From Verrucomicrobiales bacterium (lineage in GTDB: Bacteria > Verrucomicrobiota > Verrucomicrobiia > Verrucomicrobiales > DEV007): a stretch of DNA of 57,868 nt. The notes under the pieces are model-generated. The model ran no database searches and was not told the origin of the DNA. It saw nothing but the letters and a program-made list of their open reading frames with translations. The stretch spans positions 1 to 57,868 of the forward strand of contig JARGNI010000036.1 of assembly GCA_029213195.1 (NCBI GenBank), written 5' to 3'. A program made the position numbers and the translations under genes. Of this stretch, positions 1 to 29,800 are shown in pieces (the stretch's first letter is position 1; each line of letters starts with the position of its first letter).

Positions 1-71
1 AGGCGAGGGCGGGAATCGAACCCGCGATAGAGCTTTTGCAGAGCCCGGCCTTACCACTTGGCTACCTCGCC
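1..71 (-). tRNA. tRNA-Cys (anticodon GCA)
   Basis: Read on the minus strand, a complete 71-nt cloverleaf is present. The acceptor GGCGAGG pairs with CCTCGCC, the anticodon loop CTGCAAA carries GCA, and a GGTTCGAATCC-type T loop follows. The discriminator base is U (plus-strand position 1 is A, read as T), as is usual for tRNA-Cys. The 3' CCA is not visible because the window begins at the discriminator. Its nearest neighbour is the 3' end of cysN. Confidence 0.95.
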
Positions 72-157
72 GTCACTTTTCTGCCTCGAAAGGAAGCAGG
101 GCGGTATTTAAAGGGCAATCCCCCATGCTGTCAATCGGTTAGAGACAGGCTTCTCAC

Positions 158-229
158 TCCTTTTTCTTTTCCTACTCTTTTCCCATTTCCGAGGGATTCA
201 AAAACCTTGGAAAAAGAAAAGGAAACGGG
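158..229. repeat. Polypyrimidine/polypurine inverted element without ORF
   Basis: The pyrimidine tract (about 158-190, containing CTCCTTTTTCTTTTC and CCTACTC) is followed after a short spacer by a purine tract (209-225, GGAAAAAGAAAAGGAAA) that can pair with it imperfectly. It lies between the cysN stop and tRNA-Cys. The words CTCCTTTTTCTTTTC and CCTACTC recur, complementary, at 20208-20241. It may act as a terminator-like hairpin after cysN, but the shared words point to a dispersed repeat family. Confidence 0.45.
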
Positions 230-236
230 TATTCGA

Positions 237-1520
237 TCAGATGATCATTCCTGCCGCAACGGTCTCATTGGTCTGAGAGTCGATGAGAATGAAACTTCCG
301 GTCTGACGGTTCTTCCGGTAGGAATCATAGAGCAATGGCGCGGAAGTGCGGATACTTACCCGACCGATCTCATTGAGCCCAAAATTGCTCGTGTCTTCGA
401 TCTTGTGAAGCGTGTTGATATCGACCTTGTATTTCACCTCCTGGACGATGGCCTTCACTTCCTTGGTCGTGTGCCGAAGATAATATTTTCCTCGCGGCTG
501 CAGCTGCTTGCTGTCGGAGAACCAGCAGATCATGGCCTCAATCTCCTGATCCTTCTTGGGCGGATTATTCGGTTTGGCGATCATGTCGCCCCGGCTGATA
601 TCGATCTCATCCTCCAAGGTCATGGTGCAGGAGAGAGGAGCGAAGGCCTCCCTTTGCGGCCCATCGAGAGATTCGATCGCCTTGATCTTCGTCGTGAATC
701 CGGATGGTTGAACCACCACTTCATCCCCGGGCTTGAAAACTCCTCCGGCGACCCGGCCCGCAAATCCGCGAAAGTCGTGGTACTCGTCGGAATGTGGGCG
801 AACCACCCACTGCACCGGAAACCGCGCGTCGACGTGATTCTGGTCGGACCCGATATACACGTTCTCGAGCTGATACAGCATGGTCGGACCCTGATACCAG
901 TCCATCTTCTCCGATTTGTCGACGACGTTGTCGCCATGGAGTGCACTGATCGGAATCGCCGTCATATCGACGATGTTGTTGAGGCGGGAGGCAAATTTCT
1001 TGAAGTCCTCGGTGATTTCGTTGAATCGATCCTCGCTGTAGTCAGCAAGGTCCATCTTGTTCACCGCAAGGATGACATGACGGATCCGGAGCAGGTCAGC
1101 AATGAAGGCATGACGGCAGGTCTGCTCGATCACTCCGGTTCGAGCGTCGACGAGGATGATCGCAAGATTCGCGGTCGAGGCTCCTGTCACCATGTTCCGA
1201 GTGTATTGGATATGGCCCGGAGTATCTGCGATGATGAACTTCCGCTTCGGGGTCGCAAAGTAACGATAAGCCACGTCGATGGTGATGCCCTGCTCTCGCT
1301 CGGCGCGGAGACCGTCCGTGAGGAGAGCGAGGTTCACATTCTCGTCTCCACGTTTCTTCGAAGTCGCTTCGACCGCTTCGATCTGGTCTTCGAACGTGTT
1401 CTTGGAATCGTAGAGAAGACGCCCAATGAGAGTGGATTTTCCGTCGTCGACACTACCCGCAGTAGTGAAGCGCAACAGGTCCATTTCAAGATAACCTTCG
1501 TCGTAGGGAACTTCGTGCAT
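237..1520 (-). CDS. cysN: Sulfate adenylyltransferase subunit 1 (GTPase subunit, CysN)
   Basis: This 427-residue protein is the regulatory GTPase subunit of ATP sulfurylase. It couples GTP hydrolysis to formation of adenosine 5'-phosphosulfate from sulfate and ATP together with CysD in the cytoplasm. EF-Tu-like motifs are visible: P-loop GSVDDGKST at 22-30, DTPGH at 99-103 and NKMD at 154-157. The beta-barrel domains 2 and 3 follow. There is no C-terminal APS-kinase domain, consistent with the separate cysC. The start was placed at MHEVPYDEG because upstream in-frame sequence runs back into the intergenic repeat and four-helix-bundle gene and resembles no CysN. No Shine-Dalgarno is evident, and a GCGCC-TTT-GGCGC hairpin lies just upstream (1530-1542). 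It is the last gene of the operon, split from cysD by an inserted ORF. Confidence 0.95.
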   Translation of the reverse strand: MHEVPYDEGYLEMDLLRFTTAGSVDDGKSTLIGRLLYDSKNTFEDQIEAVEATSKKRGDENVNLALLTDGLRAEREQGITIDVAYRYFATPKRKFIIADTPGHIQYTRNMVTGASTANLAIILVDARTGVIEQTCRHAFIADLLRIRHVILAVNKMDLADYSEDRFNEITEDFKKFASRLNNIVDMTAIPISALHGDNVVDKSEKMDWYQGPTMLYQLENVYIGSDQNHVDARFPVQWVVRPHSDEYHDFRGFAGRVAGGVFKPGDEVVVQPSGFTTKIKAIESLDGPQREAFAPLSCTMTLEDEIDISRGDMIAKPNNPPKKDQEIEAMICWFSDSKQLQPRGKYYLRHTTKEVKAIVQEVKYKVDINTLHKIEDTSNFGLNEIGRVSIRTSAPLLYDSYRKNRQTGSFILIDSQTNETVAAGMII

Positions 1521-1543
1521 AATTTCGATGCGCCTTTGGCGCG

Positions 1544-1573
1544 GTAAAAGGTGGAAAGTGGAAAGGTAAGAAG
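1544..1573. repeat. Right inverted arm of the cysD/cysN four-helix-bundle cassette
   Basis: This purine-rich tract on the plus strand begins GTAAAAGGTGGAAAG and continues in about 7-bp steps. It is the imperfect inverted partner of 1999-2030. Its first 15 bases match the reverse complement of that arm at 13 of 15 positions. It lies between the stop of the four-helix-bundle gene and the cysN start, so in the operon transcript the two arms could pair and enclose the inserted ORF. Confidence 0.7.
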
Positions 1574-1578
1574 GCGGT

Positions 1579-1971
1579 TCAGGACAGCTCGCCCAATTTG
1601 GTTCGGATACTCTTTTCAAGCGCCGAAATGCTCTTGGAGAGTTTCTCGGCAGAACTTCGGTGAGCGCTTGCCTCTTCAGGACTGAGATATTCGAGGTCCT
1701 CGGCGAGATAAAGCATGAATCGCACTTCACCACAGGAGCCCTTCGCGATCTTCAGAAAGCGGGCAAATTCAGTTTGAAAACCTCCTTCAAAACCCTCTGC
1801 GATATTGTTCATCACGGATACTGCTGCACGCTGTATTTGATCGCGAAAACCAAAATCCCGCGAGCAGGCAGTGTCAGGACCAGTCACCGCATAGATTTCT
1901 CCAGCTTGCTTCCGTGCAGCCTGCCAAATCCTGAGGTCTTCAAATCGTTCTGCAAAGTTGTCGTTCTTCAT
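1579..1971 (-). CDS. Four-helix-bundle protein (23S rRNA intervening-sequence protein family)
   Basis: This 130-residue all-alpha protein has the family hallmarks: NIAEG at 56-60 and FLKIAKGS at 72-79, followed by GEVR. Known members were first found encoded by intervening sequences inside 23S rRNA genes; their biochemical function is not established. Start MKNDNF was chosen over an upstream in-frame ATG because it matches where the first helix (ERFEDLRIWQAAR) begins. The gene sits between cysD and cysN in the same orientation and is flanked by inverted repeats (1544-1573, 1999-2030), so it looks inserted into the operon and not part of sulfur metabolism. It is clearly a homologue, but not a near copy, of the one at 6698-7072. 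Confidence 0.88.
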   Translation of the reverse strand: MKNDNFAERFEDLRIWQAARKQAGEIYAVTGPDTACSRDFGFRDQIQRAAVSVMNNIAEGFEGGFQTEFARFLKIAKGSCGEVRFMLYLAEDLEYLSPEEASAHRSSAEKLSKSISALEKSIRTKLGELS

Positions 1972-1998
1972 TCCAAAAAAACGTCTGGCCAAAAATCA

Positions 1999-2030
1999 CT
2001 TTCCTACTTTCTCACCTTCCCACCTTTCAC
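1999..2030. repeat. Left inverted arm of the cysD/cysN cassette
   Basis: This is a pyrimidine-rich plus-strand tract, purine-rich in the operon mRNA. Its reverse complement starts GTGAAAGGTGGGAAG, matching 1544-1558 at 13 of 15 positions, and continues with GTGAGAAA and GTAGGAAAG steps. It separates the cysD stop region from the four-helix-bundle ORF. A perfect 16-bp palindrome, AATCGCCCGGGCGATT (2036-2051), lies between this arm and the cysD stop codon. Confidence 0.7.
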
Positions 2031-2035
2031 TCTAA

Positions 2036-2051
2036 AATCGCCCGGGCGATT
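2036..2051. repeat. 16-bp perfect palindrome abutting the cysD stop codon
   Basis: AATCGCCCGGGCGATT is its own reverse complement and touches the cysD TAG (2052-2054). It is the first sequence downstream of cysD in the operon direction and marks the outer edge of the inserted cassette. It could be the recognition or duplication site of the insertion, or a transcript-end stabiliser. No T-tract follows, so a terminator is unlikely. Confidence 0.5.
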
Positions 2052-2972
2052 CTAGAAATACCCTTCCTTCTTGCGATCCTCCATGGCGGTCTCGGAGCGC
2101 TTGTCGTCGGCGCGGGTTCCGCGTTCGGTTTGGCGGGCGGTGGCGACTTCCTGAATGATGGTATCCATGTCGGCGGCGTCCGAGTAAACCGCGCCGGTGC
2201 AGGTCATGTCGCCGATGGTCCGGAAACGAACCGTCGCATTCTTTTCGACCTCCTCGCCCTCCTGGGGAATGACCACATCCGAGATGGCGAGCATGGAGCC
2301 ATTCCGATGCACGACATCACGCTGGTGGGAAAAGTAGAGACTTGGGAGTGGGATCTTCTCGGCTTTGATGTATTGCCAGACATCCATCTCAGTCCAGTTC
2401 GAAAGCGGAAAGACTCGGAAGTGCTCCCCATGGTGCTTTCGTCCGTTGAAAATATTCCAGAGCTCAGGGCGCTGATTCTTCGGATCCCATTGTCCGAAGT
2501 CATCACGGTGAGAAAAGAAACGCTCCTTGGCGCGAGCCTTCTCTTCGTCTCGTCGACCACCACCAAGACAGGCATCGTATTGATTGTCCTCGATCGTATC
2601 GAGCAGGGTCACGGTTTGAAGGGCATTCCGGCTGGCGAATGGCCCCTTCTCCTCCTGGACCCGCCCCTGATCGATCGAGTCTTGGACGAGTCCCACCACA
2701 AGCTCCGCGCGGAGCTCGGCAACATAGCTGTCCCGATACTCGATCGTCTCATCGAAGTTGTGTCCCGTATCAACATGAACCAGGGGAAAAGGAATGCGCG
2801 CCGGGAAGAAGGCCTTCCTCGCGAGGTGAGCCATCACGATAGAATCCTTGCCTCCCGAGAAAAGAAGCGCTGGCTTTTCGAACTGGGCTGCCGTTTCCCG
2901 AAGAATGAAGATCGCCTCGGACTCGAGCTGGGCGAGGTGATTGACCCGGTAAGAGTTTCTTTCGTTTTCCAT
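2052..2972 (-). CDS. cysD: Sulfate adenylyltransferase subunit 2 (CysD)
   Basis: This 306-residue catalytic subunit of the two-subunit ATP sulfurylase makes APS and pyrophosphate from sulfate and ATP. The PP-loop SGGKDS is at 39-44, and the DTGHNF and GGGRRDEEKARAKER segments typical of CysD follow. Length matches the usual family size of about 300. Start MENERNSY is 15 bp after the cysC stop. Downstream, instead of cysN directly, there is a palindrome and a four-helix-bundle insertion. The C-terminus ends in the common GYF after an MEDRKKE stretch. It acts in the cytoplasm as a complex with CysN. Confidence 0.96.
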   Translation of the reverse strand: MENERNSYRVNHLAQLESEAIFILRETAAQFEKPALLFSGGKDSIVMAHLARKAFFPARIPFPLVHVDTGHNFDETIEYRDSYVAELRAELVVGLVQDSIDQGRVQEEKGPFASRNALQTVTLLDTIEDNQYDACLGGGRRDEEKARAKERFFSHRDDFGQWDPKNQRPELWNIFNGRKHHGEHFRVFPLSNWTEMDVWQYIKAEKIPLPSLYFSHQRDVVHRNGSMLAISDVVIPQEGEEVEKNATVRFRTIGDMTCTGAVYSDAADMDTIIQEVATARQTERGTRADDKRSETAMEDRKKEGYF

Positions 2973-2987
2973 GGTATCAAATTCTTT

Positions 2988-3605
2988 CTATGGGCTCGCA
3001 GGAGCTTCGATGCGCTTCGAGACCGCCTCCAACAATTGAGCGAGGCATTCGTCCTCGTTGTGAAGCTCGGTGTCAATGATGAGATCGGGACGATCCGGCT
3101 CTTCAAACCCGGAGTCCTTACCTGTGAAATTCTTTACCTCTCCCGCGTCGACTTTGGCATAAAGTCCCTTGGGATCTCTCTCTGCGCAGGTCTGGTAGGA
3201 GGCACTTACATAGACTTCGAGAAGGTCGTCATCTCCGAGAATGGAGCGAGCCAGCGAACGCAGCTCGTTGTTCGGGGTGATAAACGACGCGATCGTCACG
3301 ACCCCGGACTCGGCAAACAACTTGGCGACCTCGGCAACTCTCCGGATATTCTCGAGACGGTCCTCGTCGGAGAAGCCGAGATTCTGATTCAAACCCGATC
3401 GGACATTGTCCCCATCGAGGACTTTCACGAAATTCCCCTGCTCGTGGAGGCGACGCTCGAGGAGATTGGCGAGGGTCGATTTCCCGGAGCCCGACAGACC
3501 ATACATCCAGACGACAATTCCTCGCTGCGAAAGGAGCGACTCCTTGGCCTCTCGGGGCAGCATCTTGTCGAAGACGGGATAAATATGATCGAGATTCGAA
3601 CTCAT
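2988..3605 (-). CDS. cysC: Adenylylsulfate kinase (APS kinase, CysC)
   Basis: This 205-residue kinase phosphorylates the 3' hydroxyl of APS to give PAPS. The P-loop GLSGSGKS is at 36-43, and the DGDNVR and DPKGLYAK motifs of APS kinases follow. Start MSSNLDHIY was chosen because the in-frame extension upstream would overlap cysH and has no APS-kinase character. It lies between cysH (26 bp upstream) and cysD (15 bp downstream), so co-transcription is likely. Unlike many bacteria, where CysC is fused to CysN, it is a free-standing polypeptide here. Confidence 0.95.
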   Translation of the reverse strand: MSSNLDHIYPVFDKMLPREAKESLLSQRGIVVWMYGLSGSGKSTLANLLERRLHEQGNFVKVLDGDNVRSGLNQNLGFSDEDRLENIRRVAEVAKLFAESGVVTIASFITPNNELRSLARSILGDDDLLEVYVSASYQTCAERDPKGLYAKVDAGEVKNFTGKDSGFEEPDRPDLIIDTELHNEDECLAQLLEAVSKRIEAPASP

Positions 3606-3631
3606 CAGAAACAGAACAGTAGAAGTGGTGC

Positions 3632-4396
3632 TTAGATCACGAAATCGAGATCTTCGTGCAATCCACACTCCCGCTTCAACCCAAAGAAGCGAGTTTCCTC
3701 GGCCGACATACCATCGGTCAGTTTTCGCGAGGTGTGCCAGTCTCCGATGGAAACATAGCCCTCTTCCCAGAGGGGATGATAGGGCAGATCATGTTTTACG
3801 AGGTATTCACCGACATTCTGATCGGTCCAATCGATGATGGGGTGAACCTTGAGACGTCCTTTCTGGCGAGCCACCACGGGTAGATTTTCGCGAGAACTGC
3901 TTTGTTGGCGACGAATCCCACTCAGCGTGATTTCCGGATCGAGTTCCGTCATGGCTCGGTCCATGGGCTCGACTTTGTTCATCTGGTTGTATTTCTCGAT
4001 CCCTTCGACTCCGTCCTCCCAGAGTTTTCCGAATCGTGCCTCCTGCCAGGCGGGGCTGAGATCGCTGCGATACACCTTCAGATTCAGATCGAGCTTCTCT
4101 CGCAGGCTGTCGATGAAATGATAAGTCTCGGTGAAGAGATACCCGGTATCGATGAGAACCACAGGTAAATCGGCTTTCTGTCGGGTCGCAAGATGCAAGA
4201 GAACGGCGGACTGGGCTCCAAAACTCGAGGTCATGATGACCCGGTCTTCCGAATGCTCCAATGCCCAGGCAACTCGATCCTCTGCCGAAGCGTTTTCGAG
4301 TCGACGCGACGCTTCGGACAGTTCCTCGGAGCTTTCACTGGAAGTGGAAGTCGGGACTGCGGTCGCGCTGGCTGTCTGGGGAAGGTCTTCACTCAT
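3632..4396 (-). CDS. cysH: Phosphoadenylylsulfate (PAPS) reductase (CysH)
   Basis: This 254-residue cytoplasmic enzyme reduces PAPS to sulfite with thioredoxin or glutaredoxin as donor. A PP-loop-like [10 protein letters not shown] segment, the [10 protein letters not shown] substrate loop and the catalytic C-terminal ECGLH (243-247) are visible. The CC and CxxC cysteines that ligate the iron-sulfur cluster of APS reductases are absent, so the PAPS-specific type is favoured; this agrees with cysC in the same operon. An N-terminal Ser/Thr/Glu-rich tail of about 30 residues precedes the domain. It is the first gene of the operon and has a palindrome 9 bp upstream of its start. Confidence 0.94.
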
Positions 4397-4404
4397 CTAA
4401 AATA

Positions 4405-4419
4405 CCTATTCTTGATAGG
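4405..4419. promoter_or_regulatory. Candidate operator of the cys operon
   Basis: CCTAT-TCTTG-ATAGG is a 5-5-5 inverted repeat 9-23 bp upstream of the cysH ATG. Its position across the expected ribosome-binding and leader region suits a repressor. CCTAT/ATAGG-type half sites resemble those of Rrf2-family cysteine or iron-sulfur regulators (CymR, IscR); that assignment is inference. No regulator gene is nearby. Confidence 0.4.
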
Positions 4420-4655
4420 ATTTGTCGACTTTTGACGTTCCGTAACTAAGATCCCTTACGATCCAGCGTCAACTATTTCTTTGGATCCTCGACCGGGAAT
4501 CCATCGCAACGGGCCACCCTCGCCTCCGGTCCCAAGCCCAGGGATCTCTATGTTCGGGAATGCCTCCACATCGCTCGCTGATCCGTAGTTGACTCCTAGA
4601 CAGCATTCTCCATCTTTCGCTTGTCAATTTCATTGAATCCCAACACACACCTACC

Positions 4656-5291
4656 ATGTCAGTTCTCGTCGGAAAACCCGCCCCCAGCTTCAGCGCCAAC
4701 GCCATCGTCGATGGCCAGGTCGTCGAAAACTTCTCTCTCGATCAGTATCGTGGCGAGAAATACGTGATCCTCTTTTTCTATCCCAAAGATTTCACCTTCG
4801 TCTGCCCTACTGAGCTCCACGCTTTCCAGGACGCGCTCGCCGAGTTCGAGTCCCGCGATGTTGTCATTGTCGGTTGTTCGACCGACACCGAGATGTCTCA
4901 CTGGGGATGGCTCCAGGTCCCGCGGGACAAGGGCGGTATCGGCGGGGTAACCTATCCCCTCGTCGCAGACACCAACAAGACGATCTCCGCTGCCTACGAT
5001 GTTCTCGTCGGCGACTACGATCTCGACGAATACGGCGACCTCATCGTCGAAGGAGAGCTGATCGCCTATCGCGGGCTCTTCCTGATCGACAAGGAAGGCA
5101 CCGTGCAGCACCAGCTCGTCAACAACCTTCCCCTGGGACGCTCCATCAAGGAAGCGATCCGTATGGTCGACGCCCTCCAGCATTTCGAAGAAAACGGAGA
5201 AGTCTGCCCGATGGACTGGGAGAAAGGCGCTGACGCCATGCAGGCCAATCACGAAAGCACCGCTGAGTATCTCGCAAAGAGCAGCTCCTAG
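4656..5291 (+). CDS. Typical 2-Cys peroxiredoxin (AhpC/Prx1 type)
   Basis: This 211-residue thiol peroxidase reduces hydrogen peroxide, organic hydroperoxides and probably peroxynitrite. The peroxidatic cysteine is C50 in FTFVCPTEL, and the resolving cysteine is C184 in EVCPMDW. The GGIGG and C-terminal YL segments associated with the oxidation-sensitive Prx1 class are recognisable (GGIGGV; EYLAKS). No signal peptide is present. The start follows a pyrimidine/adenine leader with no Shine-Dalgarno. A strong terminator follows (5332-5363), so it is probably monocistronic. Divergence from the cys operon may reflect linked thiol and redox physiology, but no shared control is visible. Confidence 0.95.
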   Translation: MSVLVGKPAPSFSANAIVDGQVVENFSLDQYRGEKYVILFFYPKDFTFVCPTELHAFQDALAEFESRDVVIVGCSTDTEMSHWGWLQVPRDKGGIGGVTYPLVADTNKTISAAYDVLVGDYDLDEYGDLIVEGELIAYRGLFLIDKEGTVQHQLVNNLPLGRSIKEAIRMVDALQHFEENGEVCPMDWEKGADAMQANHESTAEYLAKSSS

Positions 5292-5331
5292 CCTCCTTTT
5301 CTCCAAAGAATTTGAGATTCCAGATCCCAGG

Positions 5332-5363
5332 AAAGCTCCTCGAAGTTTCGAGGAGCTTTTTTT
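5332..5363 (+). terminator. Rho-independent terminator of the peroxiredoxin gene
   Basis: AAAGCTCCTCGAA (5332-5344) pairs perfectly with TTCGAGGAGCTTT (5347-5359), and a run of T continues to 5363. The flanking A tract on the left would also make it work weakly in reverse. Confidence 0.85.
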
Positions 5364-5417
5364 GTGTCCGCCTCCGCCGTTTGGCCCCTTCGCGTTGGGG
5401 ATTTCTGAGGTTCCATC

Positions 5418-5464
5418 TTGACCAGTGAAACCGCCGCCGTAAGTTGGCGCGCTCGACGTCGAGC
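5418..5464 (+). promoter_or_regulatory. Candidate sucC promoter with a palindrome at the predicted start site
   Basis: A sigma70-like -35 TTGACC (5418-5423) and -10 TAAGTT (5440-5445) are separated by 16 bp. The predicted start site falls on the perfect 14-bp palindrome GCTCGACGTCGAGC (5451-5464), which ends 15 bp before the sucC ATG. The palindrome could be an operator or a 5'-UTR hairpin. Confidence 0.5.
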
Positions 5465-5479
5465 CCCCACTCTCTTTCC

Positions 5480-6658
5480 ATGAATATCCACGAATACCAG
5501 GCCAAGGAACTGTTTGAAAAATTTGGGGTTGCGACCCCGAAAGGCAAAGTCGCCGACACCGCCGAAGAAGCTCGCGCCGCAGCCGCGGAATTGGGAGACG
5601 AAATCGTGGTGAAAGCCCAGGTCCACGCCGGTGGCCGAGGCAAGGGGACCTTCAAGAATGGTTTTCAGGGCGGGGTCCATCTGGTCAAGAATGCGGACGA
5701 GGCTGCCGATGTCGCTTCGAAGATGCTGGGACAAACCCTTGTCACTCACCAAACGGGAGAAGAAGGAAAGCTCGTCAGCAAAATCATGGTCGCAGATGCG
5801 GTCGACATCGAAAAGGAATACTACCTCGCGATCCTCATGGACCGGGAAAGTCGCTCTCCTGTCATCGTCGCCAGTACCGAGGGCGGGGTGAACATCGAGG
5901 ATGTCGCCGAGAATACTCCGGACAAGATCTTCAACGAGGTAATTCACCCGCTCCTTGGGCTCCAGCCCTACGAAATCCGAAACCTCGCCTCCAAGCTTGG
6001 TTTCGCTGGAGACACCGCGAAGCAATTCGCAAAGTTGCTCAAGGGTCTCTATCAGCTTTTCATGTCCTGCGACTGCTCCATGGTCGAGGTCAATCCGCTG
6101 GTGACAACACCGGACGGAAACGTTCTCGCCCTCGACGCCAAATTCGATTTCGACGACAACGCTCTCTATCGTCATCCTGAGATCGCCGAGCTCCATGACC
6201 CGACCGAGGAAGATCCTCGCGAGGTGGAAGCCGCCAAGTTCGATCTCAACTACATCGGACTCGACGGCAACATCGCCTGCCTCGTGAATGGTGCCGGACT
6301 CGCCATGGCGACGATGGACATCATCAAGCAGAGCGGCGGCGAACCAGCGAACTTCCTCGACGTGGGAGGAGGCGCGACGCAAGAGCAGGTCCGAAACGCC
6401 TTCAAGATCATTCTCAGCGACCCGAACGTGAAAGGCATTCTCGTGAATATCTTCGGAGGCATCATGGACTGCGACGTGATCGCCAAGGGCATCGTCGCTG
6501 CCTGTGGCGAAGTCGACCTGAGCATCCCTCTCGTGGTTCGCCTCGAAGGCAACAACGTCGAAGCTGGAAAAGCCACGCTCGCGAGTTCCGACGTCGATCT
6601 TATTCCCGCCGACACCCTTGCCGATGCCGCTCAGAAAGCAGTCGCGGCGATCGCCTGA
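5480..6658 (+). CDS. sucC: Succinyl-CoA synthetase (ADP-forming) beta subunit
   Basis: This 392-residue beta subunit, with an ATP-grasp N-terminal domain, partners SucD in the TCA-cycle conversion of succinyl-CoA to succinate with substrate-level phosphorylation. It starts with the near-universal [12 protein letters not shown] and contains [12 protein letters not shown] (the ATP-grasp lysine loop), EVNPLV and the C-terminal [10 protein letters not shown] segment that contacts the alpha subunit. An in-frame ATG 12 codons upstream is not used by homologues. The stop codon directly abuts an inverted repeat, and a four-helix-bundle ORF separates it from sucD. Confidence 0.96.
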
Positions 6659-6683
6659 AGTTTCAGGTTCTCAGTTTCAAGTT
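6659..6683. repeat. Left inverted arm of the sucC/sucD cassette
   Basis: The tract starts at the base after the sucC stop: AGTTTCAGG, then TTCTCAG, then TTTCAAGTT, in about 7-bp steps. It matches the reverse complement of 7060-7084 at 19 of 25 positions, so it could fold the inserted ORF into a loop of the sucC-sucD mRNA. Confidence 0.65.
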
Positions 6684-6697
6684 ACTAGTCCGATCTA

Positions 6698-7072
6698 ATG
6701 GCATACCAAAGTTTTGAACAGCTGCACGTGTTGCAACGTGCCATTCAACTCGCTGAATATGTCTATCGATCCGTAGAGTCGATGAAACGATTTTCGCTGA
6801 AAGACCAGATGGAACGCTCTTCTCTTTCTATTCCCTCCAACATTGCGGAAGGGCAGGAACGAGATGCTCCCAAGGATTTTCGTCGTTTCCTTCGAATCGC
6901 GAAAGGCTCTTCGGGAGAACTTCGCACTCAAAGCCTCCTCTCGAAACGCTTAGGACTCCTATCCGAAGAAGCCGCAGAACACATCGTTAACGAAACTCGG
7001 GAAATCTCGGCGATGATCCAAGGGCTGATTCGCTCAATCGACAGCAAACTTGGAGCAAAAACTTCAAACTAA
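6698..7072 (+). CDS. Four-helix-bundle protein (23S rRNA intervening-sequence protein family), second copy
   Basis: This 124-residue all-alpha protein has NIAEG at 48-52 and FLRIAKGS at 64-71 followed by SGELR, the same signature as the gene between cysD and cysN. It starts at MAYQSFEQL; the first helix has the family's LxVxQxAxxL-like spacing. It lies between sucC and sucD, co-directional, and flanked by inverted repeats. The last codons and the stop lie inside a 14-bp tandem repeat (7061-7093), so the C-terminus (KTSN) is encoded by repeat sequence. Function is unknown; it is very unlikely to be a TCA-cycle component. Confidence 0.88.
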   Translation: MAYQSFEQLHVLQRAIQLAEYVYRSVESMKRFSLKDQMERSSLSIPSNIAEGQERDAPKDFRRFLRIAKGSSGELRTQSLLSKRLGLLSEEAAEHIVNETREISAMIQGLIRSIDSKLGAKTSN

Positions 7073-7093
7073 ACACTTCAAACTAAACACTTC
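7060..7093. repeat. Right inverted arm with a 14-bp tandem repeat before sucD
   Basis: ACTTCAAACTAAAC occurs at 7061-7074 and exactly again at 7075-7088, followed by ACTTC. The first unit contains the stop of the four-helix-bundle ORF; the last is 3 bp before the sucD ATG. It is the imperfect inverted partner of 6659-6683. Confidence 0.75.
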
Positions 7094-7096
7094 CTC

Positions 7097-7990
7097 ATGG
7101 CTATCCTTGTTGACGAAAACACCAAGATCCTGATCCAGGGTATCACCGGCTCCTTTGGCGGACGCCACGCACAACTGAGCCTCGACTACGGCACGCAACT
7201 CGTTGCCGGGGTGACCCCTGGCAAGGGCGGTCAGAAATTCGCGGACACGGTTCCCATCTTCGACACCGTCGGTGACGCGGTTTCCGAAACGGGCGCGACC
7301 GTGAGTGCCATCTTTGTTCCACCTCCCTTTGCAGGCGATGCGATCCTCGAAGCCGTCGACGCAGGCGTCGATCTGGTCGTCGCGATCACCGAAGGAATTC
7401 CCGTCATGGACATGATGAAAGTCCGCGCGGCGATGAAAGACTCGGGCGCCCGTCTCATCGGCCCCAATTGCCCAGGAATCGTGACCCCCGGAACGGGAGA
7501 GAATTCTCACGGTGGCTGCCGAATCGGAATCGCCCCGGGTTACATCCACAAGCGGGGAAAAGTCGGCGTCGTTTCTCGAAGCGGCACCCTGACCTACGAG
7601 GCTGTCTACCAGTTGACCAGCCTGGGACTTGGCCAGAGTACCTGCGTCGGGATCGGAGGCGACCCCATCAACGGGACGTCTCACCTCGACGTTCTCAAGA
7701 TGTTCAATGACGATCCTGAAACCGAAGCCATCATCATGATCGGTGAAATCGGTGGAACCGCGGAAGAAGAAGCAGCCGAGTGGGCCAAGGAGAATTGTGA
7801 CAAGCCGATTGCCGGTTTCATCGCTGGAGCGACAGCGCCTCCGGGACGTCGCATGGGTCACGCCGGAGCGATTGTTTCCGGTGGAAAAGGCACCGCCGAA
7901 GCGAAAATCGCTGCGATGCGCGATGCGGGCATCGAGGTTGCAGAAAACCCCTCGGACATGGGAGACGCCCTCGTCCGGGCCATGGGCTGA
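7097..7990 (+). CDS. sucD: Succinyl-CoA synthetase alpha subunit
   Basis: This 297-residue alpha subunit binds CoA and carries the phosphohistidine. The N-terminal CoA-binding Rossmann motif GITGSFGG (about 15-22), GPNCPG at 122-127 and H255 in MGHAGAIV, the phosphorylated histidine, are visible. Length is normal. Start [10 protein letters not shown] is standard. The upstream gap to sucC is filled by the four-helix-bundle cassette, so translational coupling to sucC has been lost. Citrate synthase follows 91 bp downstream, suggesting a small TCA operon. Confidence 0.96.
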
Positions 7991-8081
7991 TCAGAAAAGC
8001 CCTTCCGAATCGATACCGGAATCGCGGAATTCCGCATCTCGGGTTGATTTTGCTGATCGTATTTGTTTAGAAAGAGTAATC

Positions 8082-18197: not shown

Positions 18198-18446
18198 CCG
18201 GAGGGACCGCGTCCTCGCGGTCCGTTTACGCCACACCGTGTTCGATATCGCTTCTTTAGCGGACGTCGGGGGCGCGGACATCGGGGACGATGTCCCTCCT
18301 TTTCCCATCCGGAGGGACCGCGTCCTCGCGGCCCGTTTGCGCCACACCGTGTTCGATATCGCTTCTTTAGCGGACATGAGGGGCGCGGACATCGGGGACG
18401 ATGTCCCTCCTTTGCCCCTCCGGAGGGACCGCGTCCTCGCGGTCCG
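18198..18446. repeat. 111-bp tandem repeat made of inverted REP units
   Basis: The unit starting CCGGAGGGACC repeats with a period of exactly 111 bp (18198, 18309, and a partial third at 18420). Each unit has a plus-strand hairpin (head GGAG, stem GGACCGCG with CGCGGTCC, loop TCCT) and a minus-strand hairpin (head GGAG, stem GGACATCG with CGATGTCC, loop TCCC) separated by about 52 bp of shared spacer. The hairpins are at 18200-18223, 18276-18299, 18311-18334, 18387-18410 and 18422-18445. The rest of the trpS-to-kinase gap (18182-18485) holds nothing else. Confidence 0.9.
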
Positions 18447-18485
18447 TTCTTCGCTCTTACTTACCCAGACCCGCTTTCACTCCCC

Positions 18486-26879: not shown

Positions 26880-29800
26880 CTACGGCTGCGCCGCCTCGGC
26901 CTGACGTCGCGCGGCTTCCATTGCGGCACGCTGGGCTTCCGCTTGCGCACGGGCCTGCTCCTCGGCCTGGCGTCGCGCTGCTTCTTCGGCTGCTCGTCGT
27001 GCTGCTTCCTGGCGGGCTCGTTCTTCGGCCTGCTGTTTCGCCGCTTCCATTGCGGCACGCTGGGCCTCGGCCTGGGCTCGGGCTCGTTCCTCCGCTTCGC
27101 GCTTCGCCGTTTCCATCGCTGCAGCTCTCTGAGCCTGCTCCTCGGCCTGCTGTCTCGCGGCTTCCATTGCGGCACGCTGTGCCTCGGCCTGGGCTCGGGC
27201 TTGTTCTTCCGCTTCGCGCTTCGCCGTTTCCATGGCGGCTGCTCTCCGGGCTTGCTCTTCGGCCTGCTGTTTCGCCAATTCCATCGCGGCACGCTGCGCT
27301 TCTGCTTCTGCCTTGGCACGCTCCTCGGCTTGCAATTTCGCTGCCTCCATTGCCGCCTGCTGAGCCTGCGTCGCCTCGGCTCGCATTTTCTCTTCCGCCT
27401 CGCGTTGCATGGCGGCCTGCTGTGCCGCCTCGACCTTGGCGCGTTCTTCGGCCTCGAGTTTTGCGTTCTCCATCGCAGCCTGTTGCGCAGCTGCGGCTTC
27501 GGCCTGCAACCTGGCAGCCTTCATCTCGGCTTGTTGAGCGGCGAGGGCCTCTGTCTTGGCGCGTTCTTCCATCTGCAACTTCTCCGCGGCCATGGCTGCC
27601 TGCTGGGCGGCAACAGCTTCCGCCTGAGCCCGCTCCTCCGCCTCACTCCTTGCCGCTTTCTCCGCGGCTTCGGCCCTGGCTTGCGCCAATTCTTTCGCTT
27701 GGCGCTCGGCGGCTTCCCTGGCCACTGGCTGAGTCGCCGCGGCATCTACTTGAACCGGCTCCGGTATCGCTGGGTTGCTCACACTCATGGAACCTCGACG
27801 TGCCGAACCGGGACCAGACCGAGGGCGCTCTTCCCCTGCGAGTTTCGGCATCTCCCCTGGGGTGGCTCGATCCTCTCCAGCGACCTCTGGTCTGCGAAGG
27901 CCGCGTCCCTTGCCCGTCCGTTCCGACAAACCGGAACCTACAAGTCTACGAGTCGGGCTTTCTGTCTCCGATGGATTGGCTTGCGGAACGGGTTCCGCGG
28001 TGGAGGTTTCCGCTCCAATCGTCCCAGGCTCCGCAGACATGGCGACCTCGGGAGACGTCGATTCTCCACTCGGAGTGGCCACACTTCCTGTCGCTTCAGC
28101 GACAACGGTCTCGACCGTCGGGTCAACCGGCATCGCCACGGCAGGGTGCGTCGCGGGTTCGGCGCCCTGGGTTTCTTCCGCAGGAGTCGTCGCCGGTTCG
28201 ACAGGCATCGCGACGACCGGTTCGGTGGCGCGTTCCGCAATTTCCGCCTCTTCTCCCGTCGAGACCTCCGCCACGACCACTTCGGCCTCGGGTTCTGCCG
28301 GAGCGGTTCCCACTGGCTCTGTTGCCGGTTCAGCAGGCATCGCCACCTCGGATGCCACCGTGGGCTCGGTAGCCGACGGCTCTTCTGCAGATTCCGGGGA
28401 AGGCTCCGCAGGCATGGCGACGACCGGGTGGGACGGGGTATCGGCATTCTGAGCGACCCCGCCCTCCGGGACCTCCGCCACGACCGCTTCCGCCACGGGA
28501 TCCGCGGGCATCACTACCTCAGATACCACGTCAGGCTCGGCAGCTGCGGCCTCCCCCGTAGATTCCGTGCTGGATTCAGAAGGCATGGCCACAACTGGTC
28601 CTCCGGAAGAATCGGGACCTTGAGCTTCCGGTTCCTCCGGGACCTCGGCCACGACGGCTTCGACCCCAGGTTCCGCAGGATCCACTACCACGGGCTGGGG
28701 CGCAGGTTCGGTCGGCATCGCTACTTCCGTTTCCGTCACCGGCTCCGTCGTCTCGGTTTCTTCGCCTTCCGGAGCTTCGCTGGTTCCCGGTTCCACCCCT
28801 GGGTCGGCAGGGTTCACTTCCGCAAGCTCAGTTGCAGGTTCGGGAGTCTCGGGAATCTCAGGAACGGCTGCGATGGCGGCTTCCTCCATCGCTTCGACCT
28901 TGGCAACATCCTCCGTAATTTCCTTTTTGATCTCGGCAATTTCCGTCTTCGGAACCTCGGAGAAAGCATCGACCGGGGTGACGTCACGCAGTCGCTTCCG
29001 GATCCTGGGCGCGACAACCGCAGCGCCGGTCGCGACGGCAGGAAGAGTGATCCGAGGAACATGAGCCGTCCCTCCCGTAGGTTTCACCCCATGCCCATGC
29101 GTGCCCCTTTCTCCAGGGGCCAAACGGATCGGCTTATGAGGAACCTGGGCCCGACAGGCGCGCTCGACCTGGTGTCTCGAGGGGCCGCCTCTCTGAACAA
29201 AACACTGGGCGCGGTCCCGGCGATGATGAGGAACGATCCGGGTCGTGTTGACGCTGCTTCGGAAGAGAACCGTGTTCTGGGTCACCGGGGCATAGACGTG
29301 CGTGTAGTTGTTGCTGACGAACCGGTTGGTCGTAATGAAAACATAGCTCGAGGGCCCGAGATCGTACTTCAGATCGCAGTTGCGATCGGCTCCACGGAAG
29401 TTGTCTCGACGGGGAGGTAGAGGCGCCCACCCCACGTGGTCACTGGTCTGACGCCAGGAAACCCAGGCTGGCGCCCACTCGGAACCCGGAACCCATACCC
29501 AGCCAACTCGATTCAGATTGACCCATCGACCGTAGTGATAGGTCGCCCAGCCAAAAGGCTCGTTGGAATTCCAGGCCCAGCCGTCATCCGTCCACGCCCA
29601 GGAGCCATCGCAATACGGGCGCCAGTCACGGCCCGCGGCCACGTAAGGTTGCCAGGAATAGCCATATTCCTCGATGTCGATCCAGCTGCCATGGGGGGCC
29701 AGGCCTTCGTAAAAAACGGAATAGTCGAGAACTGCGGATGAGTCCTGCTGCGGTGAAGCGGAAATACCAGAAGGGTTTTGCGAATCCGGAATCGGAACGG

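Follow-up and report, generated by a model that had tools for sequence, protein, structure and literature searches.

The small gene that separates cysD from cysN in the stretch of Verrucomicrobiales DNA analyzed here (57,868 nt in all, hereafter the window) belongs to the S23 (23S_rRNA_IVP) family, which is familiar chiefly from insertions in rRNA genes and the genes of which prove mostly to be flanked, in genomes of many phyla, by inverted arrays of a seven-base repeat. In our judgment, the chances are about even that the unit formed by gene and arrays is a mobile cassette that acts at the DNA level, that is related to the intervening sequences (IVSs) of 23S rRNA and in which the S23 protein partners its heptamer arrays. 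It seems to be a type of mobile element that has been overlooked.

The locus is read from the minus strand in the order cysD (2972-2052), S23 (1971-1579) and cysN (1520-237), and the S23 gene is thus co-directional with both host genes. The latter were named by NCBIfam profiles above cut-off (the NF009214 equivalog for cysD and TIGR02034 for cysN), and the 130-aa product of the ORF between them exceeded the cut-offs of PF05635 (3.6e-31; 108 bits, cut-off 33.8) and TIGR02436 (98.8 bits, cut-off 24), as expected from the initial annotation, which had placed an S23-family ORF at 1579-1971 and described it as splitting the two subunit genes. The names sucC and sucD, used below, were likewise assigned by NCBIfam, while gene names elsewhere were mostly read by eye from translations. 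In transcript order, the 5′ arm is a degenerate array with a mixed step of 7 and 8 bp (1996-2031, minus strand), and the 3′ arm is an array with a 7-bp step and the inverse of the 5′ arm (1544-1574, minus strand); the cassette is about 0.5 kb in size. Imperfect inverted flanks with 13 of the outer 15 bases matched, as first described, were recovered at 1544-1558 and 2016-2030, whereas the accompanying claim of steps of about 7 bp held for the cysN-side arm (lag-7 identity 0.59) and failed for the cysD-side arm, which is nearer to 8 bp (lag-8 identity 0.64, lag-7 identity 0.41). The two arms of this copy scored 12.0 against each other, compared with 10.0 for the 95% level of arms from different loci, although one of 12 mismatched arm partners reached 17.5.

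Two short structures that had been seen at the outer edges of the arms were also located. The perfect 16-bp palindrome AATCGCCCGGGCGATT occupies exactly 2036-2051 and abuts the cysD stop at 2052, and a GCGCC-TTT-GGCGC hairpin lies ahead of cysN at 1530-1542. Short GC-rich hairpins between host gene and array, as in these two cases, also occur at L063, L066 and L344-L346 and, as judged by eye, at sites without S23. At the position of the palindrome itself, short hairpins recur by eye in some relatives, with S23 either present or absent.

The S23 protein encoded between cysD and cysN is predicted to fold into a four-helix bundle (AlphaFold, pLDDT 93.3), for which the top Foldseek match was 2gsc (Xanthomonas XCC0516; E 9.1e-6, TMq 0.81), followed by 2rld (Bacteroides BT_0352). 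It is the only sensible ORF between the cysD-cysN arms, where neither a transposase nor a recombinase was found, and a PADLOC search for defence systems gave no match for either of the two S23 proteins in the window. Elsewhere, an S23 subfamily with an altered core was observed (L051, L057, L058, L068, L074), in which the motifs AEAW or AEDW and RRY or KRLY replace NIAEG and the arrays are of several types.

A total of four TIGR02436 genes were identified in the window's genome, each of which splits the subunit genes of one enzyme. The second cassette (6659-7096 in the window, plus strand) is located 5 kb from the cysD-cysN copy and carries a gene for a 124-aa S23 protein between sucC and sucD (6698-7072; PF05635 2.9e-32). 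Its 5′ arm (6659-6697; lag-14 identity 0.58) begins at the sucC stop, and its 3′ arm (7057-7093), which overlaps the end of the S23 ORF, is a 14-bp (2 x 7) tandem repeat with 95% matches according to TRF (lag-14 identity 0.79). The third copy is situated between gyrB and gyrA (L003, 1440-1861) and the fourth between the B and A subunit genes of a topoisomerase-IV-like enzyme (L004, 1383-1920). A preference for subunit pairs was considered as a general rule and rejected, the sites in other genomes being simply operon junctions (metK-ahcY, DUF1549-DUF1501, cas genes). The copies of the window's own genome are degenerate: two of the four pass the inverted-arm test (cysD-cysN with 12.0 and the topoisomerase-IV-like copy with 11.5), and the sucC-sucD (7.5) and gyrB-gyrA (8.5) copies remain below the 95% level. 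There was no strong array, defined by a score of 14 or more, in the window or in 80 kb sampled from its genome, nor a match to either of the two array patterns searched for. Long tandem repeats of 111 bp x 2.3 (18198-18448) and 117 bp x 2.5 (27013-27299) were observed in the window.

Within the family, S23 genes are present in 47 of the 74 genomes. The set examined comprised 96 S23 sites, drawn from L001-L093 as a part of the genome matches, with a duplicate removed and the window's two sites included; 130-nt flanks were usable at 93 of these, the other three having short or masked flanks. Self-identity of the flanks over these 93 sites peaked at lags of 7, 14 and 21 (0.35, 0.33 and 0.34 for the left flank, against about 0.26-0.27 in shuffles). 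The score of one flank against the inverse of the other had a median of 15.5, compared with 7.0 both for flanks of different sites and for the direct orientation, and exceeded the 95% level of mismatched pairs at 79 of the 93 sites (direct orientation: 11 of 93). Furthermore, a period-7 segment was found in 129 of 192 arm windows but in only 31 of 531 windows taken as controls at least 600 nt from S23, and was absent from 22 of the 96 sites. When the family, genome-collection and viral loci were pooled (199 loci, 398 arm windows), period 7 was detected in 235 arm windows and its multiple, period 14, in 195, with 6 to 23 windows for each of the periods 4-6 and 9-13. Period 8 was seen in 74 of the 398 windows, possibly due to lineages that use octamers or to mixtures of 7 and 8.

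The two arms share the same heptamer at 83 of the 94 loci with two readable arms, compared with 14.7% for mismatched loci. The aligned heptamers contain a near-invariant G preceded by a purine, a pattern that arises partly by construction because the alignment allowed free rotation, and the G-rich strand is directed inward in both arms (left 100/122, right 98/113). At the upstream border, lag-7 identity climbs from about 0.25 to 0.36-0.44 on the three bases of the stop codon (78 sites, one of which, L052, was mistakenly assigned the stop of a neighboring site), which is only suggestive of a stop codon that forms part of the heptamer. Some arrays overrun or provide the stop codon of the upstream gene, and TAG is the commonest stop upstream of the cassettes (38 TAG, 26 TGA and 14 TAA among the 78, one being misassigned).

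The position between cysD and cysN looks typical of the element rather than odd. Both neighbors were called within 400 nt at 78 sites, and 59 of the 96 sites were co-directional on both sides; taken separately, 75 of 86 upstream and 69 of 85 downstream neighbors run in the direction of S23, as against 95 of 134 background pairs (71%). Gene direction was assigned with a crude caller based on amino-acid composition, by which co-direction is only moderately above background, and the true share is higher because at least seven discordant sites, that of cysD-cysN in the window among them, are miscalls involving genes known by name or by eye. Insertion inside rRNA was not seen: a rough scan of the loci for a few 23S and 16S motifs gave one stray match (L056), and a search of positions 1-8000 of the window against Rfam at the gathering threshold returned a tRNA and no rRNA.

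The heptamer follows the S23 lineage and not the insertion site. In a tree of the 96 S23 proteins, the eight cysD-cysN copies that it includes from the window's own genus form one clade, and the cysD-cysN copies of G066 and G067 are placed elsewhere. Two S23 lineages that are not related to each other, and that differ in their heptamers, have entered the pheS-pheT junction. Across the 74 of the 96 sites with a readable array, heptamer similarity tracks S23 identity in pairs from different sites (Mantel r 0.43, 0 of 2000 permutations), with a mean cosine of 0.46 above 60% S23 identity and of about 0.02-0.04 below 45%. Unrelated lineages at the same site were not found to share a heptamer, and several pairs at 50-60% S23 identity have none in common. 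Physical linkage alone could be sufficient to explain the match between heptamer and lineage, and the S23 proteins may in addition be specific for their own heptamers.

The presence of the cassette varies between close relatives. The initial annotation had suggested a comparison of the cysD-cysN junction for empty sites, and 11 of the 27 junctions obtained from 30 loci in the genus are indeed short and empty; nine others are occupied, three contain a solo arm, one is odd (G009) and three are unclassed. In the genomes with a solo arm (G020, G028, G030), it is the cysN-side array that has been retained. The sucC-sucD junction is short in 24 of 30 cases, occupied in two and unclassed in four, and the short junctions include a clear solo array in G027 and a possible one in G031. 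As judged by eye, the sucC-sucD copy has replaced rather than split the spacer of the relatives, and no clean target-site duplication was visible when empty and occupied junctions were compared by eye. When mapped on a cysD tree, the occupied state at cysD-cysN changes five times, and three of these changes are forced by supported branches, the supports being weak.

Arrays also occur at other places. The pheS-pheT junctions of G012 and G005 contain a solo array that is, by eye, of the heptamer type of the cysD-cysN element in the same genome. None of the 15 array loci found by pattern contains S23, and four of them are inverted array pairs (L314, L315, L318, L320); the second array pattern led to S23 in two of six distinct loci, L328 being the same array as L316. 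A different insert was observed at pheS-pheT in L355 (G000:C50) and L360 (G024), with gaps of 746 and 649 nt, in which there was no heptamer array in the 140 nt read and no S23 reported.

We infer that the cassette is mobile. Near-identical S23 genes at different sites, the signature of a recent jump, were absent from the loci examined; the closest S23 genes are from the same site and pairs from different sites reach only about 76% nucleotide identity, which indicates that, among the loci sampled, the cassettes have moved rarely or long ago. We propose that the unit would consist of a single S23 gene with an array of a lineage-specific heptamer on either side, the two arrays being inverted relative to each other, and that a same-direction junction of co-transcribed genes would offer it transcription by the host operon without the need for a promoter of its own, in a place where deletions that spill into the neighbors would be punished. 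The arrays would act as DNA, in the manner of terminal inverted repeats, and not as a stem in the mRNA. An S23 oligomer may recognize its own heptamer and hold both arms together, and a host activity may then copy or move the arm-bound unit. Inverted arrays without S23 and solo arrays would represent non-autonomous derivatives and relics.

All 14 measurable same-site S23 pairs have dN/dS ratios of 0.02-0.17 (two further pairs were saturated), and although the ratios are rough because dS exceeds 1 in 13 of these pairs, they indicate that S23 is under purifying selection. This implies a benefit to the host or a tight coupling of S23 function to the persistence of the cassette, and a host function would also be compatible with so long a stay under purifying selection. 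We considered the possibility that S23 is a domesticated operon regulator, which binds the heptamer arrays of its operon, as DNA or RNA, tunes the downstream gene and is kept by the host. The strong selection at fixed sites, the co-directional position between subunit genes in the window's genome and the recurrence of the same junctions are all consistent with such a role, but a regulator would not be expected to be absent from the same junction in so many relatives (11 of 27 for cysD-cysN and 24 of the 26 classed for sucC-sucD). With sites as diverse as gyrase genes, cas genes and DUF1501 pairs, no common regulon is visible, and similar heptamers are found at unrelated operons. We consider domestication as a regulator to be unlikely.

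The initial annotation favored an mRNA counterpart of the rRNA IVS, in which the arms would pair in the operon transcript and be cut by RNase III, with release of the S23 segment and uncoupled expression of cysD and cysN. A selected stem in the sense RNA should contain more G-U pairs than A-C mismatches, and no such excess was found in the arms (182 vs. 210, p 0.17; 183 of 199 loci). It is true that rRNA IVSs are cut by RNase III, according to the available text of PMC4990558, and that pairing between the arms (12 or more pairs) is predicted for 155 of 188 sense transcripts; yet it is predicted equally often for the antisense strand (156 of 188), with duplexes that are slightly stronger than those of the sense strand (p 0.0007). 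The fold that had been suggested for the transcript of the cysD-cysN copy was reproduced insofar as the arms are predicted to form 36 pairs and are paired in the minimum free energy structure of the sense strand, but its z of only -1.71 was matched by 6 of 100 shuffles. The persistence of solo arms and of arrays without S23 also speaks against this mechanism. Stem formation is possible, but none of these results points to a role of the sense stem, and we find the mRNA-level mechanism distinctly improbable.

Arrays and S23 are associated, although not strictly. In the S23 loci, the 38.4 kb that lie no more than 200 nt from an S23 gene contain 61 strong arrays, with at least one at 44 of the 96 sites, and the more distant 326.9 kb contain 21; a few arrays are counted twice because two sites share one locus. 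Background DNA was sampled in stretches in which no S23 gene was found. The 397 kb taken from S23-bearing genomes contained 7 strong period-7 arrays and the 347 kb from five S23-less genomes 0, and strong arrays of periods 5, 8, 10 and 11 were absent from both samples. With a lower threshold, the S23-bearing and S23-less backgrounds gave 10 vs. 1 arrays for period 7 and 0-4 vs. 0-2 for the other periods. Arrays of the pattern GTTNNNA were found in 29 of 47 S23-bearing and 7 of 27 S23-less genomes (Fisher p 0.004) and a second array type in 6 of 47 and 0 of 27 (p 0.08), in a comparison where the S23-less genomes are generally smaller, some of them incomplete, and reversed control patterns, period-7 ones too, likewise matched a number of genomes. 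Two S23-less genomes (G002, G025) are positive for GTTNNNA, yet belong to the array-free background sample.

It might be argued that arrays grow anywhere by polymerase slippage and that S23 genes merely land alongside them. Passive growth of this kind would leave unexplained why the flanks of S23 are inverted and not direct, why arrays are concentrated within 200 nt of S23 and why the heptamer tracks the S23 lineage; we consider it very improbable, even though arrays without S23 occur and heptamers are described in the accessible part of PMC4692102 as over-represented among bacterial SSRs.

Hardly credible is the suggestion that an Avd-like S23 serves a reverse transcriptase encoded elsewhere, with heptamers written from a short template in the fashion of telomerase, since RVT_1 is absent both from the window's genome with its four S23 genes and from G066 with 16, and is present in 28 of 47 S23-bearing and 11 of 27 S23-less genomes, for all that the G-rich strands are directed inward in both arms, that the second copy's S23 matches PHROG Avd and that Foldseek placed Avd (4dwl; TMq 0.72, E 0.015) and complexes of diversity-generating retroelements (8ub7; E 0.035) below the S23 structures. 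The four-helix bundle is similar to that of Avd, and homology is noted in the available text of PMC10053308, but the cassette differs from the retroelements by the absence of RVT_1 from the window's genome and by Avd profile scores far below threshold (17.9 of 80 bits and 14.9 of 40 for P0002, no match listed for P0001).

The inverted flanks extend well beyond the family. A scan with one genome per species gave at least 584 relatives, the best 80 of which are from Bacteroidota, Acidobacteria, Planctomycetes, Proteobacteria, Firmicutes, Nitrospirae, CPR lineages, one Methanophagales archaeon and more. Significant inverted flanks were identified in 60 of the 78 usable loci among these best 80, compared with 12 for direct flanks, and 18 had no significant inverted match; the Methanophagales locus, which is cut off on the left and is not among the 60, has an array as its right flank. 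Among viral contigs, IMG/VR yielded 28 S23 matches, 23 after removal of near-duplicates and 22 of them usable, with inverted flanks in 18 and direct flanks in 3, while the named phages in INPHARED gave no tblastn match at 1e-5. Furthermore, S23 is carried by 40 plasmids in PLSDB, which are mostly cyanobacterial, and 8 of the 10 plasmid loci examined have inverted flanks (score 11 or more). The exceptions are L265, which has no scoring flanks, and L264, which has direct flanks plus an inverted array further upstream. In the latter, a cas6-cas4 locus on a Pseudanabaena plasmid, the combination of an inverted pair of arrays upstream and direct flanks around S23 has the appearance of one unit nested within another.

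The kinship with the 23S rRNA IVS that was suspected at the outset is supported by the IVS of Coxiella, which shares the anatomy of the cassette: an S23 ORF, enclosing complementary ends that are the target of RNase III, and tandem heptamers between the Shine-Dalgarno sequence and the S23 start (PMC4990558, available text). The cassette differs from the 23S rRNA IVSs of Coxiella and Leptospira by its location in protein operons, and we do not class it as a 23S IVS because it lies outside rRNA. Moreover, its S23 gene is under purifying selection, whereas the Coxiella ORF is described in the same text as undergoing reductive evolution. Insertions with IVP in both 16S and 23S rRNA are reported for CPR bacteria in the accessible part of PMC11270868. 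The best reading is that the 23S rRNA IVS is an rRNA-borne relative of the cassette.

The intergenic, G-rich heptamer arrays of Xanthomonas (GGGAATC) and Nostoc (GGGGAYT) also resemble the S23 arms, and those of Xanthomonas often form close inverted pairs (70 and 75 cases; PMC4692102, accessible part). Unlike the cassette, they were described without S23, of which there are 0 mentions in the main text of that paper, and the same holds for the TAACTGA arrays of the Beggiatoaceae in the available text of PMC4679880. A CRISPR-Cas-associated function was proposed for 18 genes for 23S_rRNA_IVP located between cmr2 and cmr3 or together with cas4 and cas6 (PMC3936711, available text). The same protein is encoded in our cas-locus examples, which have S23 between cas6 and cas4 (L264, L267) or between cas10 and cmr3 (L269), and inverted arms are present in L267 and L269, as opposed to the direct flanks of L264. 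For the cas-locus IVP genes, the inverted arms of these two loci make insertion between operon genes the simpler reading.

The cassette is similar to a DNA transposon in having terminal inverted repeats, which pass the test in two of the four copies of the window's genome, but no transposase is present. The cassette also resembles REPIN/RAYT and MITE systems, in which an autonomous gene-bearing unit is accompanied by gene-less inverted repeats. It differs from both by the lack of a transposase and by ends that are tandem heptamer arrays and differ between lineages. In a literature search that excluded preprints and covered few subscription papers, we found no paper that ties S23 genes generally to inverted heptamer arrays.

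We tentatively hypothesize, at somewhat less than even chances, that the S23 proteins found a class of mobile elements without transposase, reverse transcriptase or homing endonuclease, the ends of which would be lineage-specific heptamer arrays and the derivatives of which may lack the gene. Its traces would then be the rRNA IVSs, the IVP genes of cas loci and many heptamer repeats of Nostoc, Xanthomonas and other bacteria. Such a class would join three puzzles, namely the function of the S23/IVP protein, the origin of the rRNA IVSs and the excess of seven-base tandem repeats in bacteria, and if S23 partners the heptamer arrays, all three can be tested together. If this is true, IVP genes within cas or other operons are probably guests and do not reflect functions of the operons, a warning for those who annotate them.
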